Shown: piece by piece, positions 15,977 through 49,954 of the stretch | How the letters are laid out: every line of letters starts with the position of its first letter | How positions within the stretch are numbered: position 1 is the first letter of the stretch | Assembly: GCF_015209745.1 (NCBI RefSeq) | Contig: NZ_CP063657.1 | Span: 2,356,001 to 2,420,000, forward strand | DNA from: Lysobacter avium | GTDB lineage: Bacteria > Pseudomonadota > Gammaproteobacteria > Xanthomonadales > Xanthomonadaceae | Direction: 5' to 3' | Length of the DNA: 64,000 nt | Notes under the pieces: model-generated | Seen by the model: the letters and a program-made list of their open reading frames with translations, nothing else | What the model was told of the DNA's origin: nothing | The model's database searches: none | Program-made: the position numbers and the translations under genes

Positions 15977-16047
15977 GGCAGAGGTTTCCGTGAACGGCAG
16001 CGGGACGACCCGGAATTCTACCACCTGCCGGCCGGCCGCCCTTGCCC

Positions 16048-16698
16048 TCAGCCGACCTGCCGACGCGCAGCCGCAGGCGCGGCAGCCGGCAGACGCAACT
16101 CCCGCCACGGGCGTTCAAACACCAGAAACGACGCCATGGCCACCAGCATCAAGGCGGCAAGTACCGCCCAGGCCGAAAACACACTCGTCCCGAACCAGCG
16201 GGCCAGTGGACTGGCGAGCACCGGCATGTGCCACAAGTAGGCGCTGAAGCTGACCGCTCCCACCAGCCGCATCGGGGCCCAGGAGAACAGCCCGCTCAAC
16301 CAACCCGGTCCATGCAGCACCGCCAGCAGCAGGCTGGACCACACCAGCCCGAAAAACAGGAACCAATGGTGATTGAGCTTGTTGTCAAGCGCACCGCCGG
16401 TAATCGCCGCCCAGACTCCCGGGGTGGTCGCCACAAAGGCGACCAGCGCCGCCAGGCCTGCAACACCCCAGAGACGCGGAAAGGCGTGCTTGCGCGAACC
16501 AAGCCATTGATCCAGCCGCGCCGCGAAGCCCCCGCACAGGAACAACACCAGATACGGCCCCAGCCGCACATCGTTGCGGCCGGTCTCGCCCGGCGGCCAG
16601 AACCACAGCGCCGCCGCCACTACCAGCACCGCCACGGCAGCCTCCAGCGCCCACGGCCAACGCCAGGCGCGCATCCACACCAGCCCAAGCGCGTCCAT
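16048..16698 (-). CDS. Acyltransferase-3 family protein, C-terminal fragment
   Basis: The 216 readable residues contain several membrane segments (LEAAVAVLVVAAALWF, GPYLVLFLCGGFAARL, HHWFLFFGLVWSSLLLAVL, AVSFSAYLWHMPVL) and end with FLVFERPW. This matches the C-terminal half of OafA/YrhL-type membrane acyltransferases, where SxYLWHxP followed by a late ERP(W/F) is characteristic. Such enzymes O-acetylate surface sugars. Full members have about 350-400 residues, and the catalytic N-terminal half with its His is absent. Upstream the sequence passes directly into a truncated gspF at about 16699. I read this as a broken gene joined to gspF by a deletion or an assembly join; it is unlikely to be active. 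Confidence 0.65.
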   Translation of the reverse strand: MDALGLVWMRAWRWPWALEAAVAVLVVAAALWFWPPGETGRNDVRLGPYLVLFLCGGFAARLDQWLGSRKHAFPRLWGVAGLAALVAFVATTPGVWAAITGGALDNKLNHHWFLFFGLVWSSLLLAVLHGPGWLSGLFSWAPMRLVGAVSFSAYLWHMPVLASPLARWFGTSVFSAWAVLAALMLVAMASFLVFERPWRELRLPAAAPAAARRQVG

Positions 16699-17539: not shown

Positions 17540-19289
17540 CCGCCACCGCCCCACCGGTCACGCGGATGACCTCATCGACGGTCGTCAGCCCGGCGCGGGC
17601 CTTCAACAAGCCGTCTTCGCGCAAGGTCCGGCCACCTTGACGCGTTGCCACCTGGCGCATGACTTCGGCGGTCGCTCCGGAAATGATCAGTTCCTGCAAC
17701 TCGGGGCTCACGTCGACCAGTTCATAGATGCCCAGGCGTCCGCGATAACCGGTGCCCTGGCAATGGGTGCAACCGACCGGCCGGCGCCATGCCGGATCAC
17801 CATCGGACTCATCCAGCGATCCGACCAGATCTGCGACCGCCGCCAGGACCTCGGCCGGCTCGCTGCAACGGGTGCACAGGCGCCTCACCAGACGTTGCGC
17901 CTGCACGGCACGCACGCTGGTGGCGACGAGGAACGGTTCCACGCCCATGTCGACCAGGCGGGTAAACGCACTGACCGCGTCATTGGTATGCAGCGTGGAA
18001 AGCACCAGGTGGCCGGTAAGGGCCGATTGCACCGCGATTTCCGCGGTTTCCAGATCGCGGATTTCGCCAATCATGATCACGTCCGGATCCTGTCGCAGGA
18101 TGGCGCGCAGGGCACGCGAGAACGTGTAGCCGATCTCGGCATTGGCCTGGATCTGGGTGACCCCGGTGACCTCGTATTCGACCGGATCCTCGACGGTGAT
18201 CATCTTGCGATCGCGCTGGTTCATTTCTTCCAGCGTGGCGTAAAGGGTCGTCGACTTGCCCGAACCGGTCGGTCCGGTGACCAGCACGATGCCATGCGGC
18301 TCGCGCGCCCAGAGCCGGAACGACGCCAGATCCCGCTGCGAAAATCCCAGCCGCTCCAGGCTCAGGTCCTGCCGCTCTTTTGGCAGGAGCCGAAGCACGA
18401 TGGACTCGCCGTGCAGGGCAGGCACCGCAGAGGCGCGCACATCAACCTCCTGACCGCTGACCCGGGTCGTCAACCGCCCGTCCTGGGGCAACCGCCGCTC
18501 GGCGATATCCATCCCGGAGATGAGCTTTACGCGGGACGCCACCGCCGGGTAACGGCTGGCCGGCAGCGTCATGCGCGTATGCAGGATTCCATCGGTCCGC
18601 ATGCGGATGTGGAATACCATTTCTTCGGGCTCGATATGGATATCCGAAGCCCGTTGATCCATCGCCTGGGCGAGGATGTTGTTCACCAGCTCGATGACGG
18701 GAGCTTCTTCCGCCAACTCGCGCAGGTGGCCTACGTCGTCATCCAAGGCGGAGTCATCTCCGGCACCACCTCGCCCGGCCATTTCCAGCAGGCGGTCCAA
18801 GTCCTGGGTTCGCGTCAGGCGCCAGTCCCACGCGTTGGTTCCAAAGTGCTTCCCGAGCGCCTCGTTGATCAGCGGATCCAGCGGATCACGCGCGACAGCG
18901 ATGATCGGACCGGATGCCCGGCTCCAGGCCACCACGCCGTTGTCGACCCACCAGTCCACTGAATACCCTTCGGTACCCAGCAGTGCGCGGATCGCATCGG
19001 GACTCTCGGGCCACTCGTCTCCCGACAGCAGCGGCATCGCGAGCTGGTTCGCCAGGACCGGGAGCAAGGTTTCTTCCGACAAGGCCCCAAGACGCACCAG
19101 GATGCTGCCGATACGGCCGCCGAACTGCTTCTGAAAAGCCAGGGCCTTTTGCACATCCGAGGCGGACACGGCGCTCTGCGCGACAAGCAGATCGCCCAGC
19201 AATTGAGTCCGGGGCGATCCCTCGGGCTGATTCGAGGCGGAAAGAAGGGAGGTCTGCATGTTCATATCAGGCATGGGAAAGACAAGCAT
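17532..19289 (-). CDS. gspE: Type II secretion / pilus assembly ATPase GspE
   Basis: A 585-residue secretion ATPase that energises a type II secretion system, or a type IV pilus-like machine, at the cytoplasmic face. The N-terminal 150 residues are an MshEN-like domain (LGDLLVAQSAVSASDVQKAL). The ATPase core has Walker A GPTGSGKSTTLYATL, an Asp box MITVEDPVEYEV, Walker B DVIMIGEIRD and the His box GHLVLSTLHTNDA. A CTRC...CTHC tetracysteine motif near the C-terminus binds zinc and is typical of GspE/XpsE. It overlaps gspF. Because gspF is broken and no gspG-N genes follow, the pathway is incomplete within this window. An in-frame ATG at 19274 is an alternative start. Confidence 0.88.
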   Translation of the reverse strand: MLVFPMPDMNMQTSLLSASNQPEGSPRTQLLGDLLVAQSAVSASDVQKALAFQKQFGGRIGSILVRLGALSEETLLPVLANQLAMPLLSGDEWPESPDAIRALLGTEGYSVDWWVDNGVVAWSRASGPIIAVARDPLDPLINEALGKHFGTNAWDWRLTRTQDLDRLLEMAGRGGAGDDSALDDDVGHLRELAEEAPVIELVNNILAQAMDQRASDIHIEPEEMVFHIRMRTDGILHTRMTLPASRYPAVASRVKLISGMDIAERRLPQDGRLTTRVSGQEVDVRASAVPALHGESIVLRLLPKERQDLSLERLGFSQRDLASFRLWAREPHGIVLVTGPTGSGKSTTLYATLEEMNQRDRKMITVEDPVEYEVTGVTQIQANAEIGYTFSRALRAILRQDPDVIMIGEIRDLETAEIAVQSALTGHLVLSTLHTNDAVSAFTRLVDMGVEPFLVATSVRAVQAQRLVRRLCTRCSEPAEVLAAVADLVGSLDESDGDPAWRRPVGCTHCQGTGYRGRLGIYELVDVSPELQELIISGATAEVMRQVATRQGGRTLREDGLLKARAGLTTVDEVIRVTGGAVADG

Positions 19290-34628: not shown

Positions 34629-34792
34629 GCGGCATTTCCTGGGGATGCGACGGATCGGGAACGACGGCGACAAGCGACCATCGCCAACCGGTGTCGGCAT
34701 TGCGGAAATGCAGGTTCGCCCTTGGAGTCATCGCGCTACTGTAGCGGTTCGGGGGCCGGGACGCGACGGGATGGCGCGCAATCAAGCGGTCC

Positions 34793-36226
34793 CTATCCGG
34801 CACTCCCGGCCAACTGGCGCCGCGCACGCGTGGGGGTGTCCGGTGCGATCGCCGGGATTCGGATGACCAAGTCGGTCCCCTCGCCGGGGGCACTGCTGAC
34901 ATCGATCCTCCCGCCGGCGTCGCCGACCATCGAGGAGACCAGGGCAAGGCCCAGGCCGGTGCCTTCTCCACGCGCCTTGGTGGTGAAGAACGGCTCCAGC
35001 ACCTGGCGGCGAACGGGCTCGCTCATGCCGATACCCGTGTCGGAAAAACGGATCCGCGCGTGCCCGTCGCTGGCAGTCACGGAGATGCTGAAGTGCCCGC
35101 CCTCACGCATGGCGTCGCCGGCATTGGCGGCGATGTTCAACACCATCAATTCAAACTGTGCCGGATCGAACCGGATATGGACCGGGACAAGCGGCCCTTC
35201 GATATCGATCGCGATGTCGGGGCTCAGGAGTTGCCGCAACACCGGCCGGAGGTCATTGACCGCAGTTGCCACGTCAATCGTTTCCAGGGAGCGGGCATCC
35301 GCGCGCCCGAAGTCGAGCAAGCGGGTGGCGACCGCGGCGGCCCGACGCGATGCGCCATCCACACCCTGCAGTGCTTCACGCATGGCAGCCGGCTCCGCAC
35401 TCTGCAGCCCTTTCCCGGCGTATCCCTGCACCAGTCCGAGCAGATGGTTGAAATCGTGCGCCAGTCCGCTGGACAGTCGTCCCACCACCTCCATCTTGCG
35501 GGCGTGGACGAGCTGGTCCATCACGCGCTCTCGCTCACGGATTTCCGCCTCCAGCTGCTCGTTTGACACCACAAGTTGATCGCTGCGGAGCTTCTCAGCG
35601 GCAAGGCTCTCACGCAGCGCTGTCGCGGCCCGGTCCACCACGGCCGTGATGAGCACGAACATCAGACCGCTGATGATCCCGTCGGTGACCATCCCGCTCG
35701 CGGGCTCGCCGGCCATGACGTCCACCCGCACGCCGAGCGCGAACGCACCCAGAACGGCGAGACACATCGTCCAGACGGCGGTCCGGCCAATCATCAACCC
35801 GGTGGTGACGATCCAGACGGTGAGCAACGGGTGCTCGAACCGGTTGCCTGTGAAACCCACGCTTGAGTGGGACACCAGCATCAGCATTGCCGTCACCACC
35901 ATCAGCTGCCTGACTGCCCACTGGAACCTGCCGGTACGCACGAGATAAAGGCTGAAGCCCGCCAGCGCATAGAAGCCCATGCTCAAGGCAAAGCCGAGCG
36001 TCTCGTCTTCGCGCCACGGGACGTCTTTGAGCAGGGTGAAGCGGTACGCCCAGATTGGCGGTGCCGTGCCCAGGATGACCAGCATGACCAGCTGGAGGAC
36101 CGGCGCATTACGCCTGTCAACGGGGTCGGCGATCGGAACATCGCGAAGCCATCGCATGAACGCCTTCCACGGCGGCACGCGGGCAGACCTGACGGAAGCA
36201 GCCTCAGACGTTGCAACGGGATCCAT
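34793..36226 (-). CDS. Membrane sensor histidine kinase
   Basis: A 477-residue inner-membrane kinase. The N-terminal 200 residues contain about six hydrophobic segments (APVLQLVMLVILGTAPPIWA, LSMGFYALAGFSLYLV, QLMVVTAMLMLVSHSS, TVWIVTTGLMIGR, MCLAVLGAFALGV, IISGLMFVLITAVV) and no large periplasmic domain. A coiled linker follows, then the phosphoacceptor His257 in LSSGLAHDFNHLLGLV. The ATPase domain has MVLNIAANAGDAM, DTGIGMSEPV and GEGTGLGLALV. The HDFNN-like H-box resembles the NtrB/hybrid class. No receiver gene is adjacent, but an OmpR-type regulator lies on the same strand upstream of the two surface-protein genes. This gene begins 157 bases after the beta-barrel gene and may be co-expressed with it. 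Pairing is inferred. Confidence 0.85.
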   Translation of the reverse strand: MDPVATSEAASVRSARVPPWKAFMRWLRDVPIADPVDRRNAPVLQLVMLVILGTAPPIWAYRFTLLKDVPWREDETLGFALSMGFYALAGFSLYLVRTGRFQWAVRQLMVVTAMLMLVSHSSVGFTGNRFEHPLLTVWIVTTGLMIGRTAVWTMCLAVLGAFALGVRVDVMAGEPASGMVTDGIISGLMFVLITAVVDRAATALRESLAAEKLRSDQLVVSNEQLEAEIRERERVMDQLVHARKMEVVGRLSSGLAHDFNHLLGLVQGYAGKGLQSAEPAAMREALQGVDGASRRAAAVATRLLDFGRADARSLETIDVATAVNDLRPVLRQLLSPDIAIDIEGPLVPVHIRFDPAQFELMVLNIAANAGDAMREGGHFSISVTASDGHARIRFSDTGIGMSEPVRRQVLEPFFTTKARGEGTGLGLALVSSMVGDAGGRIDVSSAPGEGTDLVIRIPAIAPDTPTRARRQLAGSAG

Positions 36227-36383
36227 GAGCGACTCGGACGGCAGTGGATGCGGCGAGCGCCTGACTCGCGCCGACCTCGAAGCACCATAGGCTAGCCCGG
36301 CCGCGCGATGCGGTCATCCGTTGCCGGTCGGGCTTGCGCACCGCGGGACCCATCGAAGCGCTCGCGGCGTCAACCCTCCTGTG

Positions 36384-39300
36384 TCAGTAGCTGCCGACCA
36401 GGTTGATGAACCAGCCCTTGTGATCGTAGTCGAAGTTGGTCAGGTCATCGCTGAAGTCGGTGAAGTTGTAACCGACCCCCAAGCGGAAGTTGCGGTTGAT
36501 GTCACGGTCCACTCCCGCCAGCCAACCCTGCCTGGTGCCACCGTTGTCCACATCGAGCCAGCGATACTCGGCCAGCGCGTGCCACTTCTGGATCAGCTCG
36601 TAGCGGACCTGGCCGGCGGCGAACGTCGTCGCCGAATCCGCCCACGCGCCCGTGCCGCGACCGTAACGGACTTCGCCTGCGCGACGGGCCAGCTTGGCGG
36701 CGTACTCCCAGTGCTGATCCTGCTTGTAGACGCCTTCCAGCGAGAGGATCTGCGAGCGCTGGTCGTAGTCCGCGCCGCCCACCTGACCCAGTGTCGACAG
36801 GTCGTAGAGGTAGGTATACCGGCCGAACAGACCCCACCGAGTGCTGTTCCACGGACGGTAGGCGAAGCCCAGGTTGGCTTCGGCAAAGCGGGCACCGGCG
36901 GCGGAATCAAGCTTGTCCGTGGTCTCGGAATAATTCGCCCGCGCGGCCAGGCTGAGGCTTTCATTGAGCTTGTGCATCAGGCGGTTCGTGGTCACCCACT
37001 GCTCGCGCTGCTCGGCACCGGTGTCGCGACGCCACTCCAGCTTGCTCTGCCAGTCGGTGCCCGGCGAGGTGCGCCCGCCATTGATGCTGACGGCGCGGCG
37101 GTCGACGTTGCCACCATCGGCATTGGTCAGGTCACCCTGTTGCAGTGTGAAACCGGTGTTCCAGCCCTGGGCCGGATAGAGATCCATCCCGAATGTGTGC
37201 GCCAGGCCGGACGCGCTGGGCGTCTTCAGGAACTGGCTCTCGTTGAACAGGTTCACCTGGTTGGACAGGCGCCAACGCTGGCCGAGCGTCCAGCCGTTCT
37301 GCCGGTTGGTGTTGAACAGCGGGTCGTACTCGGTGCGGTCGGTCGAGTAGGTGTAGGCGCCGTAGAGGCTGTGATCGGTATCGATGCGATATTCGGCATC
37401 GACCTGCGCCGAGTCGCCACGATCACCGGTGGTGAGCTCCGCGCCGACGGTGGACAGATCGCCAAACAGGTACTTGCCACCGAGGGTCAACGCATCGTTG
37501 TCAGCGTAACGGCCGCTGTCGTCATCCAGGGTGAGCTGTGCGGTGCCGTAGAGCTCCAACGAAGTCCCGAAACGCTGGGCGTACTTCAATGCACCCAGGG
37601 TGCCATTGGCATCGCCGCTGCCGCGCTTCTCATCGACCCTGCGCACCTCGCCGCTGAGGGTGCGGTCCTCATCGATGCGCCACTCCGCCGTCAGCTGGGC
37701 CTGGGTCAGGCTTTCCGCGCCCCGCTCGGCGCGGCTGGCGCGGGCGTAGATGCCCAGCGACCCGCTCAGCTCGCCAGCCAATTCGGCTCCGACCTCCTTG
37801 ATATCGGCGCCGATGTCAAAACGGGAGACCGAGTAGCCGGCATCCACGCGCCGCCACCACGCACCCGCGCTCCAGTCGCGGTCGGTCACCCCCAGCTCCT
37901 TGAAGTTCGCCCGTGCATCCACGGCGCTGGCCTCGCCGGTGCGGGGACCGACCGGGTTGAGCTGGGTGAAGGTGAAGCCGCCGTTGTCGGAAAAGAACAC
38001 CGGCGCGCTGGTGGACTCGGTACGGGTGTGCTCCAGCTTCAGGTAGGTGCCTTTGCCCGCCTGCAGGGTGAGATCGGCACCGGCGAGGGTGTAGTCGTCG
38101 CCTGCACGGCTCTCGTCGACGTAGGTCAGGCCGACTCCCACGTGGTCGCCAAACCAGTGCTTGCCGCGGAACCCGGCCGCCACCTGGTCGGCGTCGAAGC
38201 TGGTCGGCACCCATTCGTAGTCGACCAGAAGGCGCTGTTCAAATCCGTCCAGCGGGTAGTCGCGGGTCAGCGTCGGGATGTTCTCACGCGTCAGTTGGGC
38301 CAGCGGCCGGGTCAGCAGCAAGCGGCCCTGCAGTTCGTCGATCTCGTAGTCGGCGCCACGCAGCAGGTCGATGCGGCTTTCCACCCGGCCCGTGGTGCGG
38401 TCACGCACTTCCAGCACGACGATGTCCGAACCGGGCAGCACGTCGGTGTGGCGCAGGTAGTACAGGCTGCCGCCGGTGCCGATGAACTCGCTGTGGCCCG
38501 GAGCCGTCTGCGCCTCTGAGCCAAAAACGCGCACCTGAGTGGTCGGGTCGCCCCAGACGTTGTTGGCCAGGGAACGCCAATCCAGCGCCGCGCCATACAG
38601 CGAGCGCACGTACTGGCCGTACTGGGTGCCGGTGAATCCGGTCGAGTAGTTGCCCCACAAGGCCTGGTTCTTGTCCCAGTCGGCACGCAGGTAGAAACGC
38701 CCCATCGTGTCGACGTCGCGATAGGTGGTCGAATCGTCTCCGTAGGTCGGGTAAACCATGTCCGGATCGAGACGACGGAAGATGTCCTGCGGGTCGGCGC
38801 TGGTGAAGCCGGTGAACAGCTGCTTCACGTCCCGCTGGGTGGTGTCGGCCTGCGCAGTGACGAGGTATTTGCCGTCGAACTTGCCCTTGGCATAGAACGC
38901 CAGCCGGCCATCGGCAAGGATGTCGTCGTCGTAGCGACGGTCATTATCGAACGGCGTCGTCGACCCTCTCACGTTGTTCTGGGCGATGGTGACATCGGCC
39001 AGCGCGACGGCGAACAGGTACTTGCCCGACACGTCGACATCCAGGGTGTGACGCAGCGGCTGAGCGCCACCGTCCAACGCGATCTCGAACGGGTGCTGAC
39101 CCACCGGGGCGAGGAACTCGGCGACGAACTTGCGCTCCAGATCGACCGGGTAGCGCTCGCCGTTGATCTTGAGGGCATGGTCCTGCGGCAGGTTGCGGCC
39201 TTGCAGGCGGATGCGCGAGCCGCGAATGGGGATGTTCTGCTGGCGCAGCCCATCACCGGCAAACACCCGATCCACCAGGCTTTGCGTTTGCGCCTGCTCC

Positions 39301-40073
39301 ACGCTCAAGGCGGTGCCCAGGGATTTTTCCAGGCTGTCGCGGATCTGGCTCGCTCCGCGCGAGGCTTCTTCCTCGCTGACCAGCTGCAGGGTGCGCGGCT
39401 GGGTTTCGTCGAAGCGACCGTCCTTGTCGTAGGCACGCAACACGTAAACCAGCTCGTCGCCCTTGCGGAAGCGGAACTTCGAGGGCAGCGCGCCGTCCCA
39501 GTCGGCATTGGAGACGGCAGCCACGTCGATGGCCACCTGGGTCAGCGGATCGATCAGGTCGCCGTCGGCCGCCCGGTAAATTGTCAGCTCATAGCGATCA
39601 ATGAACGCGGGATAGTTGCTGCGCACGTAAAACGCCACCGGCCTGGTGATGCGCTCACCATCGAAGGGGACCATGGACGGGGCAGAGATCGAGAGTTCCG
39701 GTTGGCCAAGCGTCGGGTCCTCGGTGGCCCAGATCACGCCCCCATTGGGCAGCGCCATGCTGAACTTGCCGCTCACCTGCGCCTTGCCGGGCGCGACCAG
39801 GCCGACGGACACGCGACGGTCCGGCGCGAGCGCCTCGGAGGACGATCGCACGCCGGTACCCTCGGTCACCGGTTCGGCCAGACCGCGGGTGCGCAACTTG
39901 AACAGCAGGCCTTCGTCAGTGCGGCAACCGTCCGCGCCGCACTCCACCGCGACCGGCGCGTCATCCGCGTCATTGGCCGCATCCGGCGCTGCCTGCTGAG
40001 CTGAGGCGGTGGACGCCATTCCCGCCAGCAGGGTGATCAGGGTGTAATCCAACAGTTTCATTTGCATGCTCAT
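36384..40073 (-). CDS. Large outer-membrane beta-barrel protein, partner of the giant repeat protein
   Basis: A 1229-residue protein with an N-terminal signal peptide (LLDYTLITLLAGMASTASAQ). A periplasmic-like region of about 450 residues follows, including a Cys pair (VECGADGCRTDEG) and an Ig-like stretch. A long C-terminal half of alternating polar/aromatic beta-strands (for example RLAFYAKGKFDGKYLVTAQA) ends with WFINLVGSY, whose aromatic last residue is typical of BAM-inserted barrels. I do not recognise a named family. The ATG at 40073 is ten bases after the giant gene's stop, with GGGGCGG between, so the two are almost certainly one operon. It could display, anchor or secrete the repeat protein. 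A TonB box or plug was not seen. Confidence 0.7.
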   Translation of the reverse strand: MSMQMKLLDYTLITLLAGMASTASAQQAAPDAANDADDAPVAVECGADGCRTDEGLLFKLRTRGLAEPVTEGTGVRSSSEALAPDRRVSVGLVAPGKAQVSGKFSMALPNGGVIWATEDPTLGQPELSISAPSMVPFDGERITRPVAFYVRSNYPAFIDRYELTIYRAADGDLIDPLTQVAIDVAAVSNADWDGALPSKFRFRKGDELVYVLRAYDKDGRFDETQPRTLQLVSEEEASRGASQIRDSLEKSLGTALSVEQAQTQSLVDRVFAGDGLRQQNIPIRGSRIRLQGRNLPQDHALKINGERYPVDLERKFVAEFLAPVGQHPFEIALDGGAQPLRHTLDVDVSGKYLFAVALADVTIAQNNVRGSTTPFDNDRRYDDDILADGRLAFYAKGKFDGKYLVTAQADTTQRDVKQLFTGFTSADPQDIFRRLDPDMVYPTYGDDSTTYRDVDTMGRFYLRADWDKNQALWGNYSTGFTGTQYGQYVRSLYGAALDWRSLANNVWGDPTTQVRVFGSEAQTAPGHSEFIGTGGSLYYLRHTDVLPGSDIVVLEVRDRTTGRVESRIDLLRGADYEIDELQGRLLLTRPLAQLTRENIPTLTRDYPLDGFEQRLLVDYEWVPTSFDADQVAAGFRGKHWFGDHVGVGLTYVDESRAGDDYTLAGADLTLQAGKGTYLKLEHTRTESTSAPVFFSDNGGFTFTQLNPVGPRTGEASAVDARANFKELGVTDRDWSAGAWWRRVDAGYSVSRFDIGADIKEVGAELAGELSGSLGIYARASRAERGAESLTQAQLTAEWRIDEDRTLSGEVRRVDEKRGSGDANGTLGALKYAQRFGTSLELYGTAQLTLDDDSGRYADNDALTLGGKYLFGDLSTVGAELTTGDRGDSAQVDAEYRIDTDHSLYGAYTYSTDRTEYDPLFNTNRQNGWTLGQRWRLSNQVNLFNESQFLKTPSASGLAHTFGMDLYPAQGWNTGFTLQQGDLTNADGGNVDRRAVSINGGRTSPGTDWQSKLEWRRDTGAEQREQWVTTNRLMHKLNESLSLAARANYSETTDKLDSAAGARFAEANLGFAYRPWNSTRWGLFGRYTYLYDLSTLGQVGGADYDQRSQILSLEGVYKQDQHWEYAAKLARRAGEVRYGRGTGAWADSATTFAAGQVRYELIQKWHALAEYRWLDVDNGGTRQGWLAGVDRDINRNFRLGVGYNFTDFSDDLTNFDYDHKGWFINLVGSY

Positions 40074-40083
40074 GATCCGCCCC

Positions 40084-43000
40084 TCACTTGTTGCCGGCGG
40101 CAGGGGCTGCCGCGTCATTGCTGGCCTCGACCCGCAGACCCGCGCGGACCTCCGGACTCAGGTGGCGTGCTATCGCTTCGTAGACCGCGGTGGCACGGCG
40201 CAGGCCAAGGGCACGGTTGTAGTCCGCAGATCCGCGCACGTCGGTGTGGCCAACCAGCACGACCGTGCCGCCGCCGCGCTGCTCCAATGCAGCGGCAACC
40301 TCTTCGATCAACGCAGCAAACTGCGGCCGGACGGTGGACTTGTCGGTATCGAACAGCACCGTCCCCAGCAACAGCTCATCGCCCTGCAGGCCGACCAGCG
40401 TCGAGGTTTCATCTGCCACGTCCTCGCGCATCGAGAGGGTCGTTTTTGCGGCCACGTCGTCCGGCAGCGGGCCGATCAGCAGTGCCTTGACGGCCGATGC
40501 CCGTGCCAGCGCCAGGCCGTCGGCACCGCTCGCCTGGATCGCGATTTCGCCGCCATCGTGCTGGACCAGCTTGTCCGCCAGGTCCGCAATGGTTGGCAGG
40601 TAGCTTGGGTTCACCTCGGCGCTGCCCGGAGCGAACAGCATCTCCTCCAGGATCACCTCGATGCGCTGCTCACCGCCGGGGATCAGCTCGACCGGCAATT
40701 TGACGCCGAAGTCAAAGCGCACCGGCAGCCCCGGGGTGATGCGGCGAACCAGCGGGTTGGCCGTGGTGAACTGTGCACCGGCCGGCAACGTCGACGGATC
40801 CACCTTGAGGATGAAATTGCGTCCACGCGCCCACTCACCACCGGCCATGCCCGCCAGGTGATAGCGGCCGTACTGGTCGGTCTCGATCAGCAGACCTTCC
40901 ACCGAGGCGATGCGCACGCCGGGGATGCCGCGCTCGTCGATGCCGGTGTTGGTGATCACGTAGTCCACCACGTAACCGTCCGCGACCTTCGCGACGCGAC
41001 GCTCGACCGTTGGAGCCGCCGAGCTCAGGCCCTTGGCGGCTTGGCCGTGATGCTCGACCGTCGTCTTGCCGGCGGCGTCCATGCGTACGGTCGCGCCCTG
41101 CTTGCTCGTCAGCACGAAGTCGCCGGTGAAAGTCGGCTCCGAGAGGCGCTGACTGATCACCACCCGATGCGCCGACGCCGGATCGGCCTCGGAGGCACGA
41201 CCGCTGAGCTGGCCGACACGAATGCCGTGCAGCAGCGGCGCGCTCGCGTCGGGATCGGCAACCGGGCCCTGGCCGCGATCGATCGTGGTGGAGCCGGCGA
41301 TATAGGCCGAGGCGGCAAACCCGCCCTGCACGGTGACGGCGTCAAGCGTGGCGCTGTCCTGCCAGCCATCGCCGTCGCGGTCGCCAAAGACCGTACCCAT
41401 CAGCAGGCTGTCATCCAGCAATGGATCGGCTGCGAGCGACACTTCGGCGGTCGCCACGTTGGACAACGGTGTGTTCCCATCGGCTGCGAAGGCCTGAGCC
41501 TGATTGACGTGGTTGCCCGGACGGACACCCGCGCCGACCCGCATCAGATAGACCAACGTGGCCTTACGCCCAGCGGCGATGTCCAGCCCGTCGAAGAGGA
41601 GCGGATTCTGGCCACTGACGGTGCCGGCGTTGTCGCCATCAGCGACCGTCAGCGAGCCCTCCACGTAGGTGAATCCGGCCGGCGGCGTGTCCAGCACCGA
41701 CACTGCGGCAACGTTCGCGGCGCCCACATTTTCGATGTCGAGCGTGTAGCGCACCAGGTCGCCGACCTTGACTTCGCGGACGCTGGCGGTCTTCACCAGA
41801 CGCAGTGCGGCCTGGCCGGTGGTCGTGACCAGGACGGTGGCGTCGTCGCAGACCGGCGTGGGCACCGAGGTGTCGCAGATCCTGTAGACGTAGCGGTCCT
41901 CGCCGGTGAAGCCCGGGTTGGGCAGGTAGACGATGCTGCCGTCGTCGTTGATCGTGATGCTGCCGTTGGACGGCGGGCTCAGCTGGGTCACCGACGACGG
42001 ATCCAGCGGCGCACCGGTGGAGGTGTCGTTGTCGGGCACGCGGATCGTGACCGGCGTATCCACCTCGGTGCTGTCCTCATCGTCGATGGCCACGACCACG
42101 TTCGGCAGGATCGTGATGGTCACGGTCGCGACCGCGCAGTTGGACGGATTGACCGCCTCGCAGATCCGGTACTCGTAGGTATCGGTGCCCGAATAACCCG
42201 GAAGCGGCGTGTAGGTGATCGTCCCATCGGGGTTAATCACGACCGTACCGTTGCCGGGCTGGCGCACGACCGTCACCACAACGTCACTCGGGTCGATCGG
42301 CGAACCGTTGAGCAGGTCGTTGCGTAGGGTCGCGGTGGTGACCGGGGTGTTCTGCGGCGTGGTGTCGCTGTCATCGTCCGCGTCGATCTGCGGGGTGACA
42401 ACCAACACCTCCACGCCCGGATTGCACTCGGCGGCCGTGGACCCAATGGTGCACGCGGCGCCATCCGAGATGACCGCGGTGTTGATCACCACACCCGCTT
42501 GAGCATCAGCCGCGGTGACCACATAGCTGCCTGACAGCGCGCATGCCGCTCCTAGCTCAAGCGCGGGACAGGTGATCGATGCAGGCGTGATCTTCGCATC
42601 AGCCACTTCCACATCGGTCAACGTCACATTGCCGGTGTTGGTCACAGTGATGGTGTAGGTCAACGTGTCGCCGACCGTCACCGTGCCGCTCTGGTCCTCG
42701 TCGGCATTGGCCGAATTCACCTTTGTCGAGACGACGGCGGGCTCCGCGTCGATCACCGTGGTCGTTGTCGACGGCGGGCTGTCGATCGGATCGTTGCCCG
42801 GCGGCGTGCCGCCCGCAGTCGCGCTGTTCACGACGTCGCCATTATCGATGTCGGCCTGGGTCAGGGTGTAGCTGCCCGTGCAGGTCGTGCTCGCACCCGG
42901 GGCCAGCGTGGTCACCGGGCAGACCGGGGCCACGGCCAGCAGGGGGTCGCTCACGACCAGATCGTTGATCGTCACGTTGCCGGTGTTGGTGACCAGGAAG

Positions 43001-46000
43001 CTGTAGGCAATGGTGTCGCCCACGGCGTTGCCGCTCGGCGTGCCGGCGGTCTTCACCAGCGTCAGCGCCGCGTTCGGGGTGATCGGGGTGGTCGTCGTCG
43101 ACGGCGGCGTGTCCACCGGCGGCGGCGTCGGATTGCCCGGGGTTGTCGGCGGCGTGCCGCCCGCGGTCGCGCTGTTCACGACCTCGCCATTATCGATATC
43201 GGCCTGGGTCAGGGTGTAGCTGCCCGTGCAGGTCGTGCTCGCACCCGGGGCCAGCGTGGTCACCGGGCAGACCGGGGCCACGGCCAGCAGCGGATCGTTG
43301 ACCGCAATACCGGTCAGGGTCACGTTGCCGGTGTTGGTGACCAGGAAGCTGTAGGCAATGGTGTCGCCCACGGCGTTGCCGCTCGGCGTGCCGGCGGTCT
43401 TCACCAGCGTCAGCGCCGCGTTCGGGGTGATCGGGGTGGTCGTCGTGGACGGCGGCGTGTCCACCGGCGGCGGCGTCGGATTGCCCGGGGTTGTCGGCGG
43501 CGTGCCGCCCGCGGTCGCGCTGTTCACGACCTCGCCATTATCGATATCGGCCTGGGTCAGGGTGTAGCTGCCCGTGCAGGTCGTGCTCGCACCCGGGGCC
43601 AGCGTGGTCACCGGGCAGACCGGGGCCACGGCCAGCAGCGGATCGTTGACCGCAATACCGGTCAGGGTCACGTTGCCGGTGTTGGTCACCAGGAAGCTGT
43701 AGGCAATGGTGTCGCCCACGGCGTTGCCGCTCGGCGTGCCGGCGGTCTTCACCAGCGTCAGCGCCGCGTTCGGGGTGATCGGGGTGGTCGTCGTGGACGG
43801 CGGCGTGTCCACCGGCGGCGGCGTCGGATTGCCCGGGGTTGTCGGCGGCGTGCCGCCCGCGGTCGCGCTGTTCACGACCTCGCCATTATCGATATCGGCC
43901 TGGGTCAGGGTGTAGCTGCCCGTGCAGGTCGTGCTCGCACCCGGGGCCAGCGTGGTCACCGGGCAGACCGGGGCCACGGCCAGCAGCGGATCGTTGACCG
44001 CAATACCGGTCAGGGTCACGTTGCCGGTGTTGGTCACCAGGAAGCTGTAGGCAATGGTCTCGCCCACAGCGTTGCCGCTCGGCGTGCCGGCGGTCTTCAC
44101 CAGCGTCAGCGCCGCGTTCGGGGTGATCGGGGTGGTCGTCGTCGACGGTGGCGTATCCACCGGCGGCGGCGTCGGATTGCCCGGGGTTGCCGGCGGCGTG
44201 CCGCCCGCGGTCGCGCTGTTCACGACCTCGCCATTATCGATATCGGCCTGGGTCAGGGTGTAGCTGCCCGTGCAGGTCGTGCTCGCACCCGGGGCCAGCG
44301 TGGTCACCGGGCAGACCGGGGCCACGGCCAGCAGCGGATCGTTGACCGCAATACCGGTCAGGGTCACGTTGCCGGTGTTGGTGACCAGGAAGCTGTAGGC
44401 AATGGTGTCGCCCACGGCGTTGCCGCTCGGCGTGCCGGCGGTCTTCACCAGCGTCAGCGCCGCGTCCGGGGTGATCGGGGTGGTCGTCGTGGACGGCGGC
44501 GTGTCCACCGGCGGCGGCGTCGGATTGCCCGGGGTTGTCGGCGGCGTGCCGCCCGCGGTCGCGCTGTTCACGACCTCGCCATTATCGATATCGGCCTGGG
44601 TCAGGGTGTAGCTGCCCGTGCAGGTCGTGCTCGCACCCGGGGCCAGCGTGGTCACCGGGCAGACCGGGGCCACGGCCAGCAGCGGATCGTTGACCGCAAT
44701 ACCGGTCAGGGTCACGTTGCCGGTGTTGGTCACCAGGAAGCTGTAGGCAATGGTCTCGCCCACGGCGTTGCCGCTCGGCGTGCCGGCGGTCTTCACCAGC
44801 GTCAGCGATGCGTCCGGGGTGATCGGGGTGGTCGTCGTCGACGGCGGCGTGTCCACCGGCGGCGGCGTCGGATTGCCCGGGGTTGCCGGCGGCGTACCGC
44901 CCGCAGTCGCGCTGTTCACGACCTCGCCATTATCGATATCGGCCTGGGTCAGGGTGTAGTTGCCCGTGCAGGTCGTACTCGCACCCGGCGCCAGCGTGGT
45001 CACCGGGCACACCGGGGCCACGGCCAGCAGCGGATCGCTCACGACCAGATCGCCGATCGTCACGTTGCCGGTGTTGGTCACCAGGAAGCTGTAGGCAATG
45101 GTCTCGCCCACAGCGTTGCCGCTCGGCGTGCCGGCGGTCTTCACCAGCGTCAGCGCCGCGTTCGGGGTGATCGGGGTGGTCGTCGTCGACGGTGGCGTGT
45201 CCACCGGCGGCGGCGTCGGATTGCCCGGGGTTGCCGGCGGCGTACCGCCCGCAGTCGCGCTGTTGATCACCTGGCCGGCGTCGATGTCGGTCTGGGTCAG
45301 GGTGTAGCTGCCCGTGCAGGTCGTGCTCGCACCCGGGGCCAGCGTGGTCACCGGGCAGACCGGAGCCACGGCCAGCAGCGGATCGTTGACCGCAATACCG
45401 GTCAGGGTCACGTTGCCGGTGTTGGTCACCAGGAAGCTGTAGGCAATGGTCTCGCCCACGGCGTTGCCGCTCGGCGTGCCGGCGGTCTTGAGCAAGGTCA
45501 GCGCCGCGTTCGGGGTGATCGGGGTGGTCGTCGTGGACGGCGGCGTGTCCACCGGCGGCGGCGTCGGATTGCCCGGGGTTGCCGGCGGCGTACCGCCCGC
45601 AGTCGCGCTGTTGATCACCTGGCCGGCGTCGATGTCGGTCTGGGTCAGGGTGTAGCTGCCCGTGCAGGTCGTGCTCGCACCCGGGGCCAGCGTGGTCACC
45701 GGGCAGACCGGAGCCACGGCCAGCAGCGGATCGTTGACCGCAATACCGGTCAGGGTCACGTTGCCGGTGTTGGTCACCAGGAAGCTGTAGGCAATGGTCT
45801 CGCCCACGGCGTTGCCGCTCGGCGTGCCGGCGGTCTTGAGCAAGGTCAGCGCCGCGTTCGGGGTGATCGGGGTGGTCGTCGTGGACGGCGGCGTGTCCAC
45901 CGGCGGCGGCGTCGGATTGCCCGGGGTTGCCGGCGGCGTGCCGCCCGCAGTCGCGCTGTTGATCACCTGGCCGGCGTCGATATCGGCCTGGCTCAGGGTG

Positions 46001-48789
46001 TAGCTGCCCGTGCAGGTCGTACTCGCACCCGGCGCCAGCGTGGTCACCGGGCACACCGGGGCCACGGCCAGCAGCGGATCGCTCACGACCAGATCGCCGA
46101 TCGTCACGTTGCCGGTGTTGGTCACCAGGAAGCTGTAGGCAATGGTCTCGCCCACGGCGTTGCCGCTCGGCGTGCCGGCGGTCTTCACCAGCGTCAGCGA
46201 TGCGTCCGGGGTGATCGGGGTGGTCGTCGTCGACGGCGGCGTGTCCACCGGCGGCGGCGTCGGATTGCCCGGGGTTGCCGGCGGCGTACCGCCCGCAGTC
46301 GCGCTGTTGATCACCTGGCCGGCGTCGATGTCGGTCTGGGTCAGGGTGTAGCTGCCCGTGCAGGTCGTGCTCGCACCCGGGGCCAGCGTGGTCACCGGGC
46401 AGACCGGGGCCACGGCCAGCAGGGGGTCGCTCACGACCAGATCGTTGATCGTCACGTTGCCGGTGTTGGTGACCAGGAAGCTGTAGGCAATGGTGTCGCC
46501 CACGGCGTTGCCGCTCGGCGTGCCGGCGGTCTTCACCAGCGTCAGCGATGCGTCCGGGGTGATCGGGGTGGTCGTCGTCGACGGCGGCGTGTCCACCGGC
46601 GGCGGCGTCGGATTGCCCGGGGTTGCCGGCGGCGTGCCGCCCGCAGTCGCGCTGTTGATCACCTGGCCGGCGTCGATATCGGCCTGGGTCAGGGTGTAGC
46701 TGCCCGTGCAGGTCGTGCTCGCACCCGGGGCCAGCGTGGTCACCGGGCAGACCGGGGCCACGGCCAGCAGCGGATCGTTGACCGCAATACCGGTCAGGGT
46801 CACGTTGCCGGTGTTGGTGACCAGGAAGCTGTAGGCAATGGTCTCGCCCACGGCGTTGCCGTTGGCCACACCGCTCTTCACCAGGCTGAGTTCGGGGGTT
46901 GGCGGCACCGGAACATCGAGCGTTGGATTGCACTTGGGCTCGACGGAATCCGCCGGACAGATTTCCTGGCTCCGCACAACCGCGGTATTGCGCACGTACC
47001 CCAGGTCGGCGTCGGCCTGGGTAACCACGTAGGTGCCGGACAGCACACAAGTGTTATTGGGGGCCGTGGGCGACAAGGTCGCGCACGTTTGGCTCGACGG
47101 GGTGATCAGCTCATCGGTGACCACGACATTGGTGAGGCTGAAGTCACCGTCATTGGTAACCGTCACTGTGTAATTCAGTGTGTCGCCGACGCTGACCGAG
47201 CCCGATCCATCCTCGTCATCATTCGACGTCATAGCCTTGATCGACGACAACGACGGCTGGCCCAGCACTGGGCCTGATACCGTCGAGGACTCGCCTTCAA
47301 ACGGATCTGGCGCAACCAGCGTCTGCGCGTAGTGCGAAACTTTAGCTGTGTTGGTGATACTGGTGTTAACAAGCGTCGGGTCGGCGTCGACCTTCACCCG
47401 GAAACGTACGCTTGCACCCTCGTTGGGAAGGACAAGACCACCTTCGGTAGTCGTCGCGCCGGAACCAAGCCGGAATACCACCTGATTGCCGTCAAACTCG
47501 GCGATGTCATCGCCTGGTCCGTCTGTCACTGGACCGGTGAATGCACCTCCTGAGTTCGTCAGAACCGTCATGGATGCCGGCACGTAGGTTGTGCCTGCGG
47601 GGATCGGATCGATCAAAGCTACCTTCGTCGCGCCATCCTTTCCGGTGTTATTAAAGGAAACTGTGTACTCCAGCTCATCGCCCAACTGCACGGCGCCGCC
47701 ATTGACGTCAACTACGCTCTTCTGCAGCGATGTCACCAGATTGGGAACAAACAGGTCGGTCACAAACACCAGTGCATGCGGGAAATATGCGTCCTGCGAA
47801 CTGGTAAAGCCCAGCGTCGCACCGGTGTCACCATTCGTCAGCAGCCCCGAGATATCGACAAAGTCGATATCGACCGCAAACTGGTTAACGTAGTCCGGAT
47901 TCTTGGCTGATATACGTGTACCGAGTCGGCTGATGCTGCTGTTCCAGAAGTTGTTCGCTGGATTGACTGCATCCGAGACGGCCGCGCCGTTGAACAGGAA
48001 TTGGTCTCCGCTGAGGTTTCCGTCACCCTCCCATACCAGAGCACCCATATATGCATTGAAGGCGCCCCAGGTCGGGGTGAGCAAGCCGCTGACGGAAACT
48101 GATGCTTGAGTAGTACCGCCCACATATCCGGCGTTACCATCAAACACCATGAGCCGCCGGAACGGCTGCGCAATGTCCTTGTATGTGACGATCAGCGACC
48201 AGCCACCGTAGTAGCCCAGCCCGCTGCCCGTGCCGCCCTCCAGCGCGGTCAGACCGGCTACATAGTAGTCGCCGGACCCCGCCGCCTTTACATGGATGGT
48301 GACGTCTGCATATGCGTGATACGGGCGATTGGAGTTTGCCTCGCCTTGCGAATTGAAGGTGTGCAGGTCCGCCGCTGCCGCACTTACTGTCTGGTAAAGC
48401 CCCGAGTTGGCAACTCGAAGCTTGATATTACGCCGGGCAGGATCCGTGTTGCCGGCGCGACCGCCCCAATACAAACCCGCCGAGAGCACCTCAGCGCCCG
48501 GGGGAAGTGTCAAGGTCGCCATTGATGAATTGGTGCCGCCAGCGCTCGGGTCTATGTTGACGTAGCGCATTTGACGATTTGCATTGCCGCCAGTCGTGCT
48601 GCTCTCGCGGTGGGCGGCGCAATTGACGCTTCCCGTTTCACATGACAACAAGGCGTTGCCGATCATCTCGATGTTGCCTGGCGCGTTGAAGCTGTGACGC
48701 TGGATCAGTTCGGCGGATGCCGGGAACGAGACCAACAGGGTCAGCACGAGCGCAGCAGATCTGAGCAGGCTGCTCATACGCGAGGGCAT
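40084..48789 (-). CDS. Giant secreted DUF11-repeat protein with C-terminal OmpA domain
   Basis: About 2901 residues. A signal peptide (SAALVLTLLVSFPASA, cleavage about residue 26) is followed by a 350-residue N-terminal domain. Two DUF11-like domains with VGDTLNYTVTVTNDGD and VQLGDELEYTVSFNNTG come next. Twelve near-identical 116-residue repeats then span about residues 628-2018. Further DUF11 and cadherin/VCBS-like domains (NTPVTTATLRNDLLNG, VDTPVTIRVPDNDTSTGAPL) follow. The C-terminal OmpA-type peptidoglycan-binding domain has VLFDTDKSTVRPQFAAL, GHTDVRGSADYN and LGLRRA. The start is the ATG at 48789, because AGGAG lies eight bases upstream; the ATG at 48873 or 48777 is possible. DUF11 domains occur in long surface proteins. 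Function here is unknown, with adhesion or a cell-surface stalk likely. Confidence 0.85.
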   Translation of the reverse strand: MPSRMSSLLRSAALVLTLLVSFPASAELIQRHSFNAPGNIEMIGNALLSCETGSVNCAAHRESSTTGGNANRQMRYVNIDPSAGGTNSSMATLTLPPGAEVLSAGLYWGGRAGNTDPARRNIKLRVANSGLYQTVSAAAADLHTFNSQGEANSNRPYHAYADVTIHVKAAGSGDYYVAGLTALEGGTGSGLGYYGGWSLIVTYKDIAQPFRRLMVFDGNAGYVGGTTQASVSVSGLLTPTWGAFNAYMGALVWEGDGNLSGDQFLFNGAAVSDAVNPANNFWNSSISRLGTRISAKNPDYVNQFAVDIDFVDISGLLTNGDTGATLGFTSSQDAYFPHALVFVTDLFVPNLVTSLQKSVVDVNGGAVQLGDELEYTVSFNNTGKDGATKVALIDPIPAGTTYVPASMTVLTNSGGAFTGPVTDGPGDDIAEFDGNQVVFRLGSGATTTEGGLVLPNEGASVRFRVKVDADPTLVNTSITNTAKVSHYAQTLVAPDPFEGESSTVSGPVLGQPSLSSIKAMTSNDDEDGSGSVSVGDTLNYTVTVTNDGDFSLTNVVVTDELITPSSQTCATLSPTAPNNTCVLSGTYVVTQADADLGYVRNTAVVRSQEICPADSVEPKCNPTLDVPVPPTPELSLVKSGVANGNAVGETIAYSFLVTNTGNVTLTGIAVNDPLLAVAPVCPVTTLAPGASTTCTGSYTLTQADIDAGQVINSATAGGTPPATPGNPTPPPVDTPPSTTTTPITPDASLTLVKTAGTPSGNAVGDTIAYSFLVTNTGNVTINDLVVSDPLLAVAPVCPVTTLAPGASTTCTGSYTLTQTDIDAGQVINSATAGGTPPATPGNPTPPPVDTPPSTTTTPITPDASLTLVKTAGTPSGNAVGETIAYSFLVTNTGNVTIGDLVVSDPLLAVAPVCPVTTLAPGASTTCTGSYTLSQADIDAGQVINSATAGGTPPATPGNPTPPPVDTPPSTTTTPITPNAALTLLKTAGTPSGNAVGETIAYSFLVTNTGNVTLTGIAVNDPLLAVAPVCPVTTLAPGASTTCTGSYTLTQTDIDAGQVINSATAGGTPPATPGNPTPPPVDTPPSTTTTPITPNAALTLLKTAGTPSGNAVGETIAYSFLVTNTGNVTLTGIAVNDPLLAVAPVCPVTTLAPGASTTCTGSYTLTQTDIDAGQVINSATAGGTPPATPGNPTPPPVDTPPSTTTTPITPNAALTLVKTAGTPSGNAVGETIAYSFLVTNTGNVTIGDLVVSDPLLAVAPVCPVTTLAPGASTTCTGNYTLTQADIDNGEVVNSATAGGTPPATPGNPTPPPVDTPPSTTTTPITPDASLTLVKTAGTPSGNAVGETIAYSFLVTNTGNVTLTGIAVNDPLLAVAPVCPVTTLAPGASTTCTGSYTLTQADIDNGEVVNSATAGGTPPTTPGNPTPPPVDTPPSTTTTPITPDAALTLVKTAGTPSGNAVGDTIAYSFLVTNTGNVTLTGIAVNDPLLAVAPVCPVTTLAPGASTTCTGSYTLTQADIDNGEVVNSATAGGTPPATPGNPTPPPVDTPPSTTTTPITPNAALTLVKTAGTPSGNAVGETIAYSFLVTNTGNVTLTGIAVNDPLLAVAPVCPVTTLAPGASTTCTGSYTLTQADIDNGEVVNSATAGGTPPTTPGNPTPPPVDTPPSTTTTPITPNAALTLVKTAGTPSGNAVGDTIAYSFLVTNTGNVTLTGIAVNDPLLAVAPVCPVTTLAPGASTTCTGSYTLTQADIDNGEVVNSATAGGTPPTTPGNPTPPPVDTPPSTTTTPITPNAALTLVKTAGTPSGNAVGDTIAYSFLVTNTGNVTLTGIAVNDPLLAVAPVCPVTTLAPGASTTCTGSYTLTQADIDNGEVVNSATAGGTPPTTPGNPTPPPVDTPPSTTTTPITPNAALTLVKTAGTPSGNAVGDTIAYSFLVTNTGNVTINDLVVSDPLLAVAPVCPVTTLAPGASTTCTGSYTLTQADIDNGDVVNSATAGGTPPGNDPIDSPPSTTTTVIDAEPAVVSTKVNSANADEDQSGTVTVGDTLTYTITVTNTGNVTLTDVEVADAKITPASITCPALELGAACALSGSYVVTAADAQAGVVINTAVISDGAACTIGSTAAECNPGVEVLVVTPQIDADDDSDTTPQNTPVTTATLRNDLLNGSPIDPSDVVVTVVRQPGNGTVVINPDGTITYTPLPGYSGTDTYEYRICEAVNPSNCAVATVTITILPNVVVAIDDEDSTEVDTPVTIRVPDNDTSTGAPLDPSSVTQLSPPSNGSITINDDGSIVYLPNPGFTGEDRYVYRICDTSVPTPVCDDATVLVTTTGQAALRLVKTASVREVKVGDLVRYTLDIENVGAANVAAVSVLDTPPAGFTYVEGSLTVADGDNAGTVSGQNPLLFDGLDIAAGRKATLVYLMRVGAGVRPGNHVNQAQAFAADGNTPLSNVATAEVSLAADPLLDDSLLMGTVFGDRDGDGWQDSATLDAVTVQGGFAASAYIAGSTTIDRGQGPVADPDASAPLLHGIRVGQLSGRASEADPASAHRVVISQRLSEPTFTGDFVLTSKQGATVRMDAAGKTTVEHHGQAAKGLSSAAPTVERRVAKVADGYVVDYVITNTGIDERGIPGVRIASVEGLLIETDQYGRYHLAGMAGGEWARGRNFILKVDPSTLPAGAQFTTANPLVRRITPGLPVRFDFGVKLPVELIPGGEQRIEVILEEMLFAPGSAEVNPSYLPTIADLADKLVQHDGGEIAIQASGADGLALARASAVKALLIGPLPDDVAAKTTLSMREDVADETSTLVGLQGDELLLGTVLFDTDKSTVRPQFAALIEEVAAALEQRGGGTVVLVGHTDVRGSADYNRALGLRRATAVYEAIARHLSPEVRAGLRVEASNDAAAPAAGNK
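42735..46905 (-). repeat. Twelve tandem 348-bp repeats inside the giant gene
   Basis: The unit recurs every 348 bases (116 codons) without frame loss. The TAGGCAATGGT segment recurs from about 43010 to 46838 in exact 348-base steps. Each unit encodes AGTPSGNAVG, IAYSFLVTNTGNVT, DPLLAVAPVCPVTTLAPGAS and PPSTTTTPITP, with two conserved Cys. The first copy (near 46838) is divergent and the last has a shorter linker. Two block types are visible: DAGQVINS copies at the N-terminal end and NGEVVNS copies at the C-terminal end. The central strand also varies between LTGIAVND and INDLVVSD/IGDLVVSD. This pattern suggests duplication and homogenisation by recombination. Confidence 0.95.
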
Positions 48790-49151
48790 CGAGCGCACTC
48801 CTGCTGGCAAACGTCCAGAGACGCATGACTCGAGCTCGCCGATCTGGCAGCCTCTGAATAATTCCTTACCCATCTCACTCTCATCCTGTTTTTTCGATCC
48901 AGCGCGCACAGGCACGCCGGTGTTCGGGGGCTCTAGAGCTCCCGAGCAACTGGTCAACCAGGGTGATTGCGGCCATCGAGGCCGATGGATATCCCTCTAG
49001 CGCCGCAGGACGCAGCGCCACCCCCCGGTTTTGCGATGCAGCATATAGACGCGCATCACAAAACAAAATCTCACTTGATCACCCCTTGGTGGGCAAAAGT
49101 AAGGTTGGGCAATAATCGGAAATAGAGGGAAATAGTGTTCCGTTGTTTTAC
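48790..49151 (-). promoter_or_regulatory. Leader and likely promoter of the giant surface operon, with octamer direct repeat
   Basis: This 362-base gap separates the regulator gene (stop at 49152) from the giant gene. At 49118-49125 and 49128-49135 the octamer GGAAATAG (plus strand) occurs twice with a 10-base period, 17 bases past the regulator stop. Direct repeats with one helical turn spacing are the usual target form for OmpR/PhoB-type winged-helix regulators, and such a regulator is encoded next door. The surrounding DNA is AT-richer than its neighbours. The part from 48790 to 48957 is open in frame with the giant gene but lacks signal-peptide character. No clear -35/-10 pair could be fixed. 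Confidence 0.4.
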
Positions 49152-49865
49152 TCAGCTGGCTAAAACGTAGCCAACTCCGCGCACGGTATGGATTGGAAGC
49201 TCCCTGCCCGCCGCAGCTGTATTGGCTTTGCGGCGCAACCGGAAGATCAGCATTTCCAGCCGCTCTTCCTCGAACCCCGCGATCTTGCTGGCAAGACTGT
49301 CGAGTATGCGTTTTCGGGGTACCACTTCGCCGGCAGCACCCACCAGTAGTGCGAGCAGCTCGCGCTCGGCGACCGAAAGCTTGACGGTGCCGCCGCCCGG
49401 AGCGAGCAGACGCCAGCGGTCCAGGTCGAAAGTCCAGCCATCAGCGTGTTGCTTGCTTTCAATGTCCGCCGGCCTGGCACCGTCTGAAGCCGCGCGTCGA
49501 CCGATGCTGCGCAGAGTCGCAACCAACACGGTCGGATCGACGGGCTTGGTGAGGTAGGCATCGGCGCCGCCGTCGAGACCGCGCACCTTGTCGGAGGATG
49601 ATGCGCGTCCGGTAAGCAATACCAATCCCGCCCGGGTGAGGCCACGAAGGTGCGTGACAATGCTGAACCCGTCTTCGTCCGGCAGCCCGACGTCTAGCAC
49701 GAAGAAATCAAACTCGCGGCCCACCATCGCTCGATACATTTCCAGCGCGCTGGGCGCGGTGGCAACGTTGAACCCCGCGTTCGCCAATACGGGCGCCAGA
49801 ATCACCTCACGCAGTTCGTTGTCATCCTCGACCACCATTACCCAAGGGCCGTCTCCCAATGCCAT
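49152..49865 (-). CDS. OmpR/PhoB-family response regulator
   Basis: A 237-residue two-domain regulator. The receiver domain has the acidic pocket VVEDDNE (residues 12-18), phosphoacceptor Asp58 in FFVLDVGLPDEDGF, Thr85 in LLTGRAS and Lys107 in YLTKPVD. The C-terminal winged helix has VKLSVAERELLALLV and ends with IHTVRGVGYVLAS. A GGAGG lies four bases before the ATG. It is immediately upstream, on the same strand, of the giant repeat gene. It has no adjacent kinase, but a histidine kinase ends the same gene string at 34793, and that kinase is the natural partner candidate. Confidence 0.92.
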   Translation of the reverse strand: MALGDGPWVMVVEDDNELREVILAPVLANAGFNVATAPSALEMYRAMVGREFDFFVLDVGLPDEDGFSIVTHLRGLTRAGLVLLTGRASSSDKVRGLDGGADAYLTKPVDPTVLVATLRSIGRRAASDGARPADIESKQHADGWTFDLDRWRLLAPGGGTVKLSVAERELLALLVGAAGEVVPRKRILDSLASKIAGFEEERLEMLIFRLRRKANTAAAGRELPIHTVRGVGYVLAS

Positions 49866-49954
49866 AGGTCCTCCGACCTTTCAGCCCGCTTACCGCGGGT
49901 CGACCACAACGATACGACATCGTGCGCCGCTTCCAGGTATTTGCACGGCTCCGT

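Follow-up and report, generated by a model that had tools for sequence, protein, structure and literature searches.

In the genome of Lysobacter avium, four consecutive genes encoding a response regulator, a giant secreted repeat protein, a barrel protein and a sensor histidine kinase rather likely constitute an exchangeable surface-display cassette, in which the giant and its dedicated barrel partner would have their expression controlled by a private two-component pair. The genes lie in a window of 64,000 nt (contig NZ_CP063657.1, positions 2,356,001 to 2,420,000), whose own numbering is used below. Genome comparison leads beyond an earlier, sequence-only reading of this DNA: it indicates that giant and barrel make up the core, that the regulator and kinase family is commoner beside trimeric autotransporters, and that the block swaps with a pilus operon.

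49152..49865, minus strand: response regulator (P0001), 237 aa; Response_reg 1.6e-18, Trans_reg_C 1.5e-13
40084..48957, minus strand: giant secreted repeat protein (P0002), open reading frame of 2,957 codons from a TTG; Pfam
36384..40073, minus strand: barrel protein (P0003), 1,229 aa from the ATG at 40073; homologs found
34793..36226, minus strand: six-TM sensor histidine kinase (P0004), 477 aa; HATPase_c 1.2e-20
34771..49949, no strand: exchange block with exactly four genes, delimited by the ends of blastn flank homology in genomes G298 and G313

The open reading frames confirmed the layout described in the sequence-only reading, with four minus-strand genes in the order regulator, giant, barrel and kinase and with the barrel ATG (40073) 10 bases past the giant's stop (40084). 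Another in-frame ATG is present at 40118, where a start would overlap the giant. The first gene of the block does encode an OmpR-type regulator with receiver and winged-helix domains (PF00072 and PF00486, both above cut-off), and the claimed six-helix kinase was recovered as six TM-like segments by averaged hydropathy together with HATPase_c by Pfam. Long open reading frames on the opposite strand look like shadows of the GC-rich coding sequence. Scanning for promoters and terminators gave 2 promoter-like and 6 terminator-like sites, both no more than in shuffled sequences. No description of the four-gene layout was found among the papers listed on DUF11/SdrD-OmpA proteins, two-component pairs and Lysobacter/Xanthomonas. 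The block is followed downstream by trpE/trpG and preceded upstream by hemN and a Crp/Fnr-type regulator gene, and is therefore sharply bounded; in view of these neighbours, a partner of the kinase among genes next to the block was rejected.

Two genomes of the genus, G298 and G313, have trpE and hemN placed as in the window. Their flanks are about 91% identical to it at the DNA level, the closest among the eight genus genomes with a trpE match, and blastn homology of the flanks breaks off at 34770 and 49950. In the slot between these points the four genes are absent and a 4.85-kb chaperone-usher operon is found instead, encoding two SCPU proteins, a PapD-type chaperone and an usher (Pfam on the G298 copy):

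2479-7187 of locus L273 (G298): Csu-like chaperone-usher operon in the trpE-hemN slot
13134-17872 of locus L274 (G313): Csu-like chaperone-usher operon in the trpE-hemN slot

This exact swap implies that one chromosomal slot carries either the pilus operon or the four-gene cassette. The proposal that the four genes form a unit held in this comparison, as they are present or absent together as one block, and we rejected the notion that they are neighbours by chance because the swap falls exactly at the block edges. Judged from gene content, they appear to behave as one exchangeable surface cassette that is gained or lost as a unit. Ushers of this operon type matched at E<=1e-40 in 5 of the 10 genus genomes searched, in G298 and G313 within the trpE-hemN slot and in G264, G217 and G282 elsewhere, with 43-48% identity; the window genome had no usher match at this threshold. 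At the block edges we found no shared words of at least 10 bases, no repeats and no difference in GC content or composition, and therefore no mobile element was identified.

An ATG at 48873 or the signal-peptide methionine near 48777 is a more plausible start of the giant than the TTG, which makes the protein about 2,900 aa long. Its N-terminus carries a signal peptide, recognised by eye, followed by a region without Pfam match. In agreement with the giant repeat protein with an OmpA end that had been read from the window, Pfam identified 14 DUF7507, 3 DUF11 and 2 Big_9 stretches and an OmpA domain at residues 2868-2930, so that DUF11-type repeats and an OmpA C-terminus are both present. Eleven repeat markers are spaced by exactly 116 residues.

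42793..46861, minus strand: near-identical DUF7507 repeats, 348 bp (116 aa), 11.7 copies, 95% matches
42112..42381, minus strand: Big_9 Ig-like domain, the better of 2 (Pfam)
40168..40356, minus strand: OmpA-family domain of the peptidoglycan-binding type at the giant's C-terminus (PF00691, E 1.1e-9)

Fetching with a barrel profile yielded 80 named loci, of which 78 include sequence on the upstream side of the barrel. In all of these but one, locus L133, the barrel comes straight after the giant (77 of 78), and OmpA lies in the giant's reading frame in 76 of the 77. At 45 of the 77 junctions the two frames overlap by 4 bases, and at 16 they are separated by no more than 16 bases; the remaining junctions are overlaps, most of which can be put down to barrel ORFs extended too far upstream. 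Close barrels occur in at least 93 of the 297 family genomes, and carriers by name include Comamonas, Variovorax, Lampropedia and Microbulbifer. Records labelled as Bacillus subtilis and Flavobacterium carry the barrel too (L152; protein P0179); we guess these to be contaminated or misnamed assemblies.

Among the matches listed, 14 of 119 close-barrel loci have the regulator and/or the kinase within 25 kb (both in 12), as judged by eye from matches on contigs with a listed barrel, to which weaker matches could add a few. These 119 loci are the listed barrel matches with at least 55% identity that span most of the full length, without fragments and distant matches. Where named close-barrel loci had wide flanks, regulator and/or kinase were present in 8 of 40. 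The expectation that all four families occur together in relatives thus stood for the giant and the barrel and failed for the two-component genes in most close-barrel loci. This implies that the conserved unit is the giant plus the barrel, to which the regulator and the kinase are accessory.

Another barrel subfamily is only distantly related (about 24% identity; profile comparison probability 99.6) and occurs in 58 of the 297 family genomes. The one giant of this subfamily that was scanned is without OmpA, the distant barrel scanned has no Pfam match, and in all 32 loci fetched the next gene after the distant barrel is of the OmpA family. An N-terminal motif of this OmpA-family gene, around KAQCWLDVSFHEY, is strongly conserved in 24 of 24 loci (L057, L075-L081, L083-L085, L093, L197-L202, L204, L205 and L210-L213). 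In 19 of the 24 best-scoring distant-barrel loci the giant is preceded by the regulator. Fifteen of the 24 have the kinase, which stands ahead of the regulator at 4 loci and past the OmpA gene at 11, some of these 11 with additional putative ORFs between the OmpA gene and the kinase. The flanking order read from the window, with the regulator at one end and the kinase at the other, therefore recurs in these 11 of 24 loci as regulator-giant-barrel-(OmpA)-kinase. In L214 and L215, the giant and the distant barrel share one reading frame of roughly 4,200 codons, in which the barrel's signal peptide is replaced by a linker rich in proline. That the giant is fused to the barrel in one branch and to OmpA in the other suggests joint action of the three parts. 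The window's own genome encodes, outside the window (L094 7998-12824), a 1,608-codon protein that combines DUF11-like parts with a distant barrel, possibly a one-chain relative of the giant-barrel pair.

The window's barrel protein had no Pfam family at E<=0.001 and no NCBIfam match, and a PDB sequence search up to E 1 returned an unrelated protein at 0.17 as the sole match. AlphaFold2 models were moderately confident (pLDDT 58.9 and pTM 0.46 for the whole mature chain, 64.5 and 0.53 for the barrel part alone), and both runs concurred in about 34 antiparallel strands at residues 626-1242:

36393..38243, minus strand: barrel proper, about 34 predicted antiparallel strands (AlphaFold2 models)

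The predicted strands, about 34 in number, may form a single closed barrel. Matches to the model by Foldseek and VIA-align were generic outer-membrane barrels with a query TM-score of at most 0.33, many of the top ones being TonB receptors. LptD, SprA and Deinococcus SlpA were among the Foldseek rows; SprA and SlpA were missing from the VIA-align matches listed, an absence that excludes nothing. Several database names make the barrel a TonB-dependent receptor, for which the giant would serve as substrate-capture protein, and the prominence of such receptors among the best structure matches fits these names. TonB-dependent receptors have 22 strands, though, against the roughly 34 predicted here, and neither Pfam nor NCBIfam detected a plug domain or a TonB-receptor match. 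Lacking a plug domain, this identity of the barrel was rejected, and we hold the whole reading to be very improbable.

A serious possibility, falling somewhat short of probable, is that giant and barrel represent split autotransporter-like secretion, with the barrel actively exporting the giant as its passenger instead of merely anchoring it. In the fused relatives the passenger occupies the N-terminal part of the chain and the barrel the C-terminal part, as in classical autotransporters, about 34 strands would form a wide channel, and SprA is among the Foldseek matches. Against this, neither the window barrel nor the scanned distant barrel has any Pfam match and therefore no autotransporter or two-partner barrel domain, the giant's C-terminal OmpA domain would need to remain periplasmic, and the structure matches are to generic barrels. 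With regard to the known types, passenger and barrel of type Va share one chain, whereas they are separate genes in the window and fused only in distant relatives; a TpsB POTRA/ShlB domain as in two-partner secretion (type Vb) was not matched in the barrel by Pfam, and neither giant nor barrel had the YadA_anchor or ESPR of trimeric autotransporters (type Vc). On the linkage and the fusions, the barrel is probably an exporter or an anchor of the giant.

The giant might alternatively be a periplasmic or peptidoglycan scaffold tethered to the outer membrane by the barrel, with regulator and kinase monitoring envelope integrity. The OmpA domain, whether on the giant or encoded by the separate gene of the distant subfamily, would suit such a role. 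However, complete giants (n=44) vary widely in length, from 822 to 3,299 aa, whereas the barrel is near-constant (median 1,241, with lengths and overlaps inflated by some homologous ORFs over-extended upstream), and the slot holds a pilus operon in other genomes; both features are adhesin-like, and we consider the scaffold unlikely.

The kinase shows the H257-D258-F259 motif and N and G boxes, conserved at >=95% in 89 aligned kinases; Pfam gave no HisKA match, though HATPase_c was found. Its sensor region is immediately preceded by the motif DPVDRRNAPxLQ:

35639..36085, minus strand: sensor region of the kinase, six TM-like segments, no Pfam domain

At E<=1e-40, 94 of the 297 family genomes have homologs of the kinase and 70 of the regulator. 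Among the candidates scored, the window genome has one of each at this threshold, and the nine other genomes of its genus have neither.

The pairing analysis drew on the 97 regulator rows and on 132 kinase rows from those listed, the weaker kinases being left out. A family kinase lies within 30 kb in 89 of the 97 regulator loci and within 200 bases in 56, of which 50 are convergent. For the 89 pairs at fetched loci, with one regulator per kinase, regulator and kinase distances correlated (Mantel r 0.776; maximum of 2,000 permutations 0.085), and the correct partner was picked in 19 of 19 genomes with two pairs. The true partner ranked in the top five of 89 for 14 of 16 distant-barrel pairs, and for 10 of the 12 that are split by 14-17 kb. 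Three results count against such pairing in the window's branch: in the window's barrel subfamily the true partner reached the top five in only 1 of 11 pairs, the distance profiles of the window's own regulator and kinase correlated at -0.26 (rank 40 of 89), and the pair of L082 ranked only 70 of 89 in the profile-correlation test. The window regulator and the window kinase both have their nearest neighbour at L082, which flanks a giant and a barrel; at L217, the next relative common to both, the two genes stand side by side. The claim that kinase and regulator form one signalling pair was thus upheld for the family, which co-evolves, and not by the ranks of the window and L082 pairs. We read the poor ranks as those of a partner family with some kinase exchange in the window's branch, because two kinase clades occur there and L059 has two kinases. 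Two family kinases with one listed regulator were seen at each of L059, L062 and L063.

The family of this regulator and kinase accompanies giant surface proteins. BLAST located a trimeric autotransporter within 12 kb of 57 of the 97 regulator loci (median distance about 1.6 kb), a DUF11 giant at 31, both at 1 and neither at 10. The barrel is also present at 26 of the 31 DUF11-giant loci, a group that includes the window locus, which was not mapped in the census and was entered as giant plus barrel. YadA_anchor was detected by Pfam in 45 of the 47 autotransporter C-termini scanned, the other 10 of the 57 being truncated by the end of the locus or contig. The 10 loci without a recognised giant count against the association; four of them (L246, L092, L230 and L260) adjoin DUF11-like or autotransporter-like proteins by eye. 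Regulator clades track the kind of surface gene: a clade of 17 contains 16 distant-giant loci and a clade of 46 contains 44 autotransporter loci, and the window's clade (n=24) is mixed. When only the sensor was used as query at phylum level, 4 of 249 genomes gave a match, including two from outside the family; in one of these two the regulator and the kinase adjoin a DUF giant (L270), and in the other no giant was seen at the kinase locus (L271), which counts against the association. Many loci among L175-L194 and L217-L259 have the kinase convergent with the regulator and divergent from the autotransporter. At L063 and L065, a family pair adjoins a protein that by eye resembles two-component-propeller sensors, with no giant.

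These data bear on whether the two-component genes are hitch-hikers with a regulatory target elsewhere, as could be argued from their lack at most close-barrel loci and from the poor profile correlation of the window pair. Against that, 87 of the 97 regulator loci of the family have a giant or a trimeric autotransporter alongside, compared with an autotransporter in 2 of 80 control loci, which were chosen for the barrel and are not a random sample; trimeric autotransporters nevertheless occur in 200 of the 297 family genomes. Moreover, regulator and kinase travel with the block in the exchange. Hitch-hiking is in our estimation quite improbable.

In the favoured surface-display cassette, the giant would be exported by means of its signal peptide and its OmpA end would bind peptidoglycan, as the domain suggests. 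The variable stalk of Ig-like DUF7507/DUF11 repeats would stand outside the cell with the N-terminal head distal. The barrel, linked to the giant and fused to it in relatives, would be its own partner in the outer membrane and would thread and/or anchor it. Kinase and regulator would form a private two-component pair, with expression of the structure set by the regulator, and the cue of the kinase may, at a guess, be membrane-embedded or membrane-soluble. More tentatively, giant and barrel (with OmpA) might be an undescribed outer-membrane display or secretion system with a barrel of at least 34 strands and passengers of up to several thousand residues, and regulator and kinase a sensor family that in Lysobacteraceae is attached to giant surface structures of any kind, autotransporter or DUF11 giant.

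The BCAM0218-0228 cluster of Burkholderia cenocepacia is described as a trimeric autotransporter cluster with sensor kinases, response regulators and an outer-membrane lipoprotein gene, for which its authors propose regulation (PMC3404963). It resembles the cassette, to the extent that the cluster is described there, in that giant surface adhesin genes are flanked by kinases and regulators, and the window's two-component family neighbours autotransporters of this kind at the 57 loci counted above. In contrast, the window giant is not of the YadA type and has a separate large barrel. Type V secretion likewise combines a long secreted passenger with a dedicated barrel, and fused forms exist, but the window barrel lacks a Pfam match, has about 34 predicted strands, and has OmpA on the passenger or in a third gene. 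The SprA translocon of the type IX system is reported to have 36 strands (PMC7463736). The predicted strand number in a single chain is comparable, whereas no related sequence was matched in the PDB and the structure match is weak and generic. Deinococcus SlpA (the S-layer deinoxanthin-binding complex) is also a large single-chain barrel and gave the highest query TM-score among the 50 Foldseek rows listed, 0.29-0.33; this score is low and the domain make-up differs, and the likeness may lie in the fold only.

According to a paper on xanthomonad genomes from 2013, all the non-fimbrial adhesins that it identified rely on type V secretion (PMC3826837). The cassette is a candidate for another kind of non-fimbrial adhesin, and it gives the problem of giant-protein export a small, defined gene set. 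If the proposed barrel is real, a single chain of at least 34 strands would rival SprA in size. About 90 kinase/regulator pairs gain a predicted target, namely the neighbouring giant surface gene, and, if this holds true, the regulator and kinase sensor could be used to find new surface systems.
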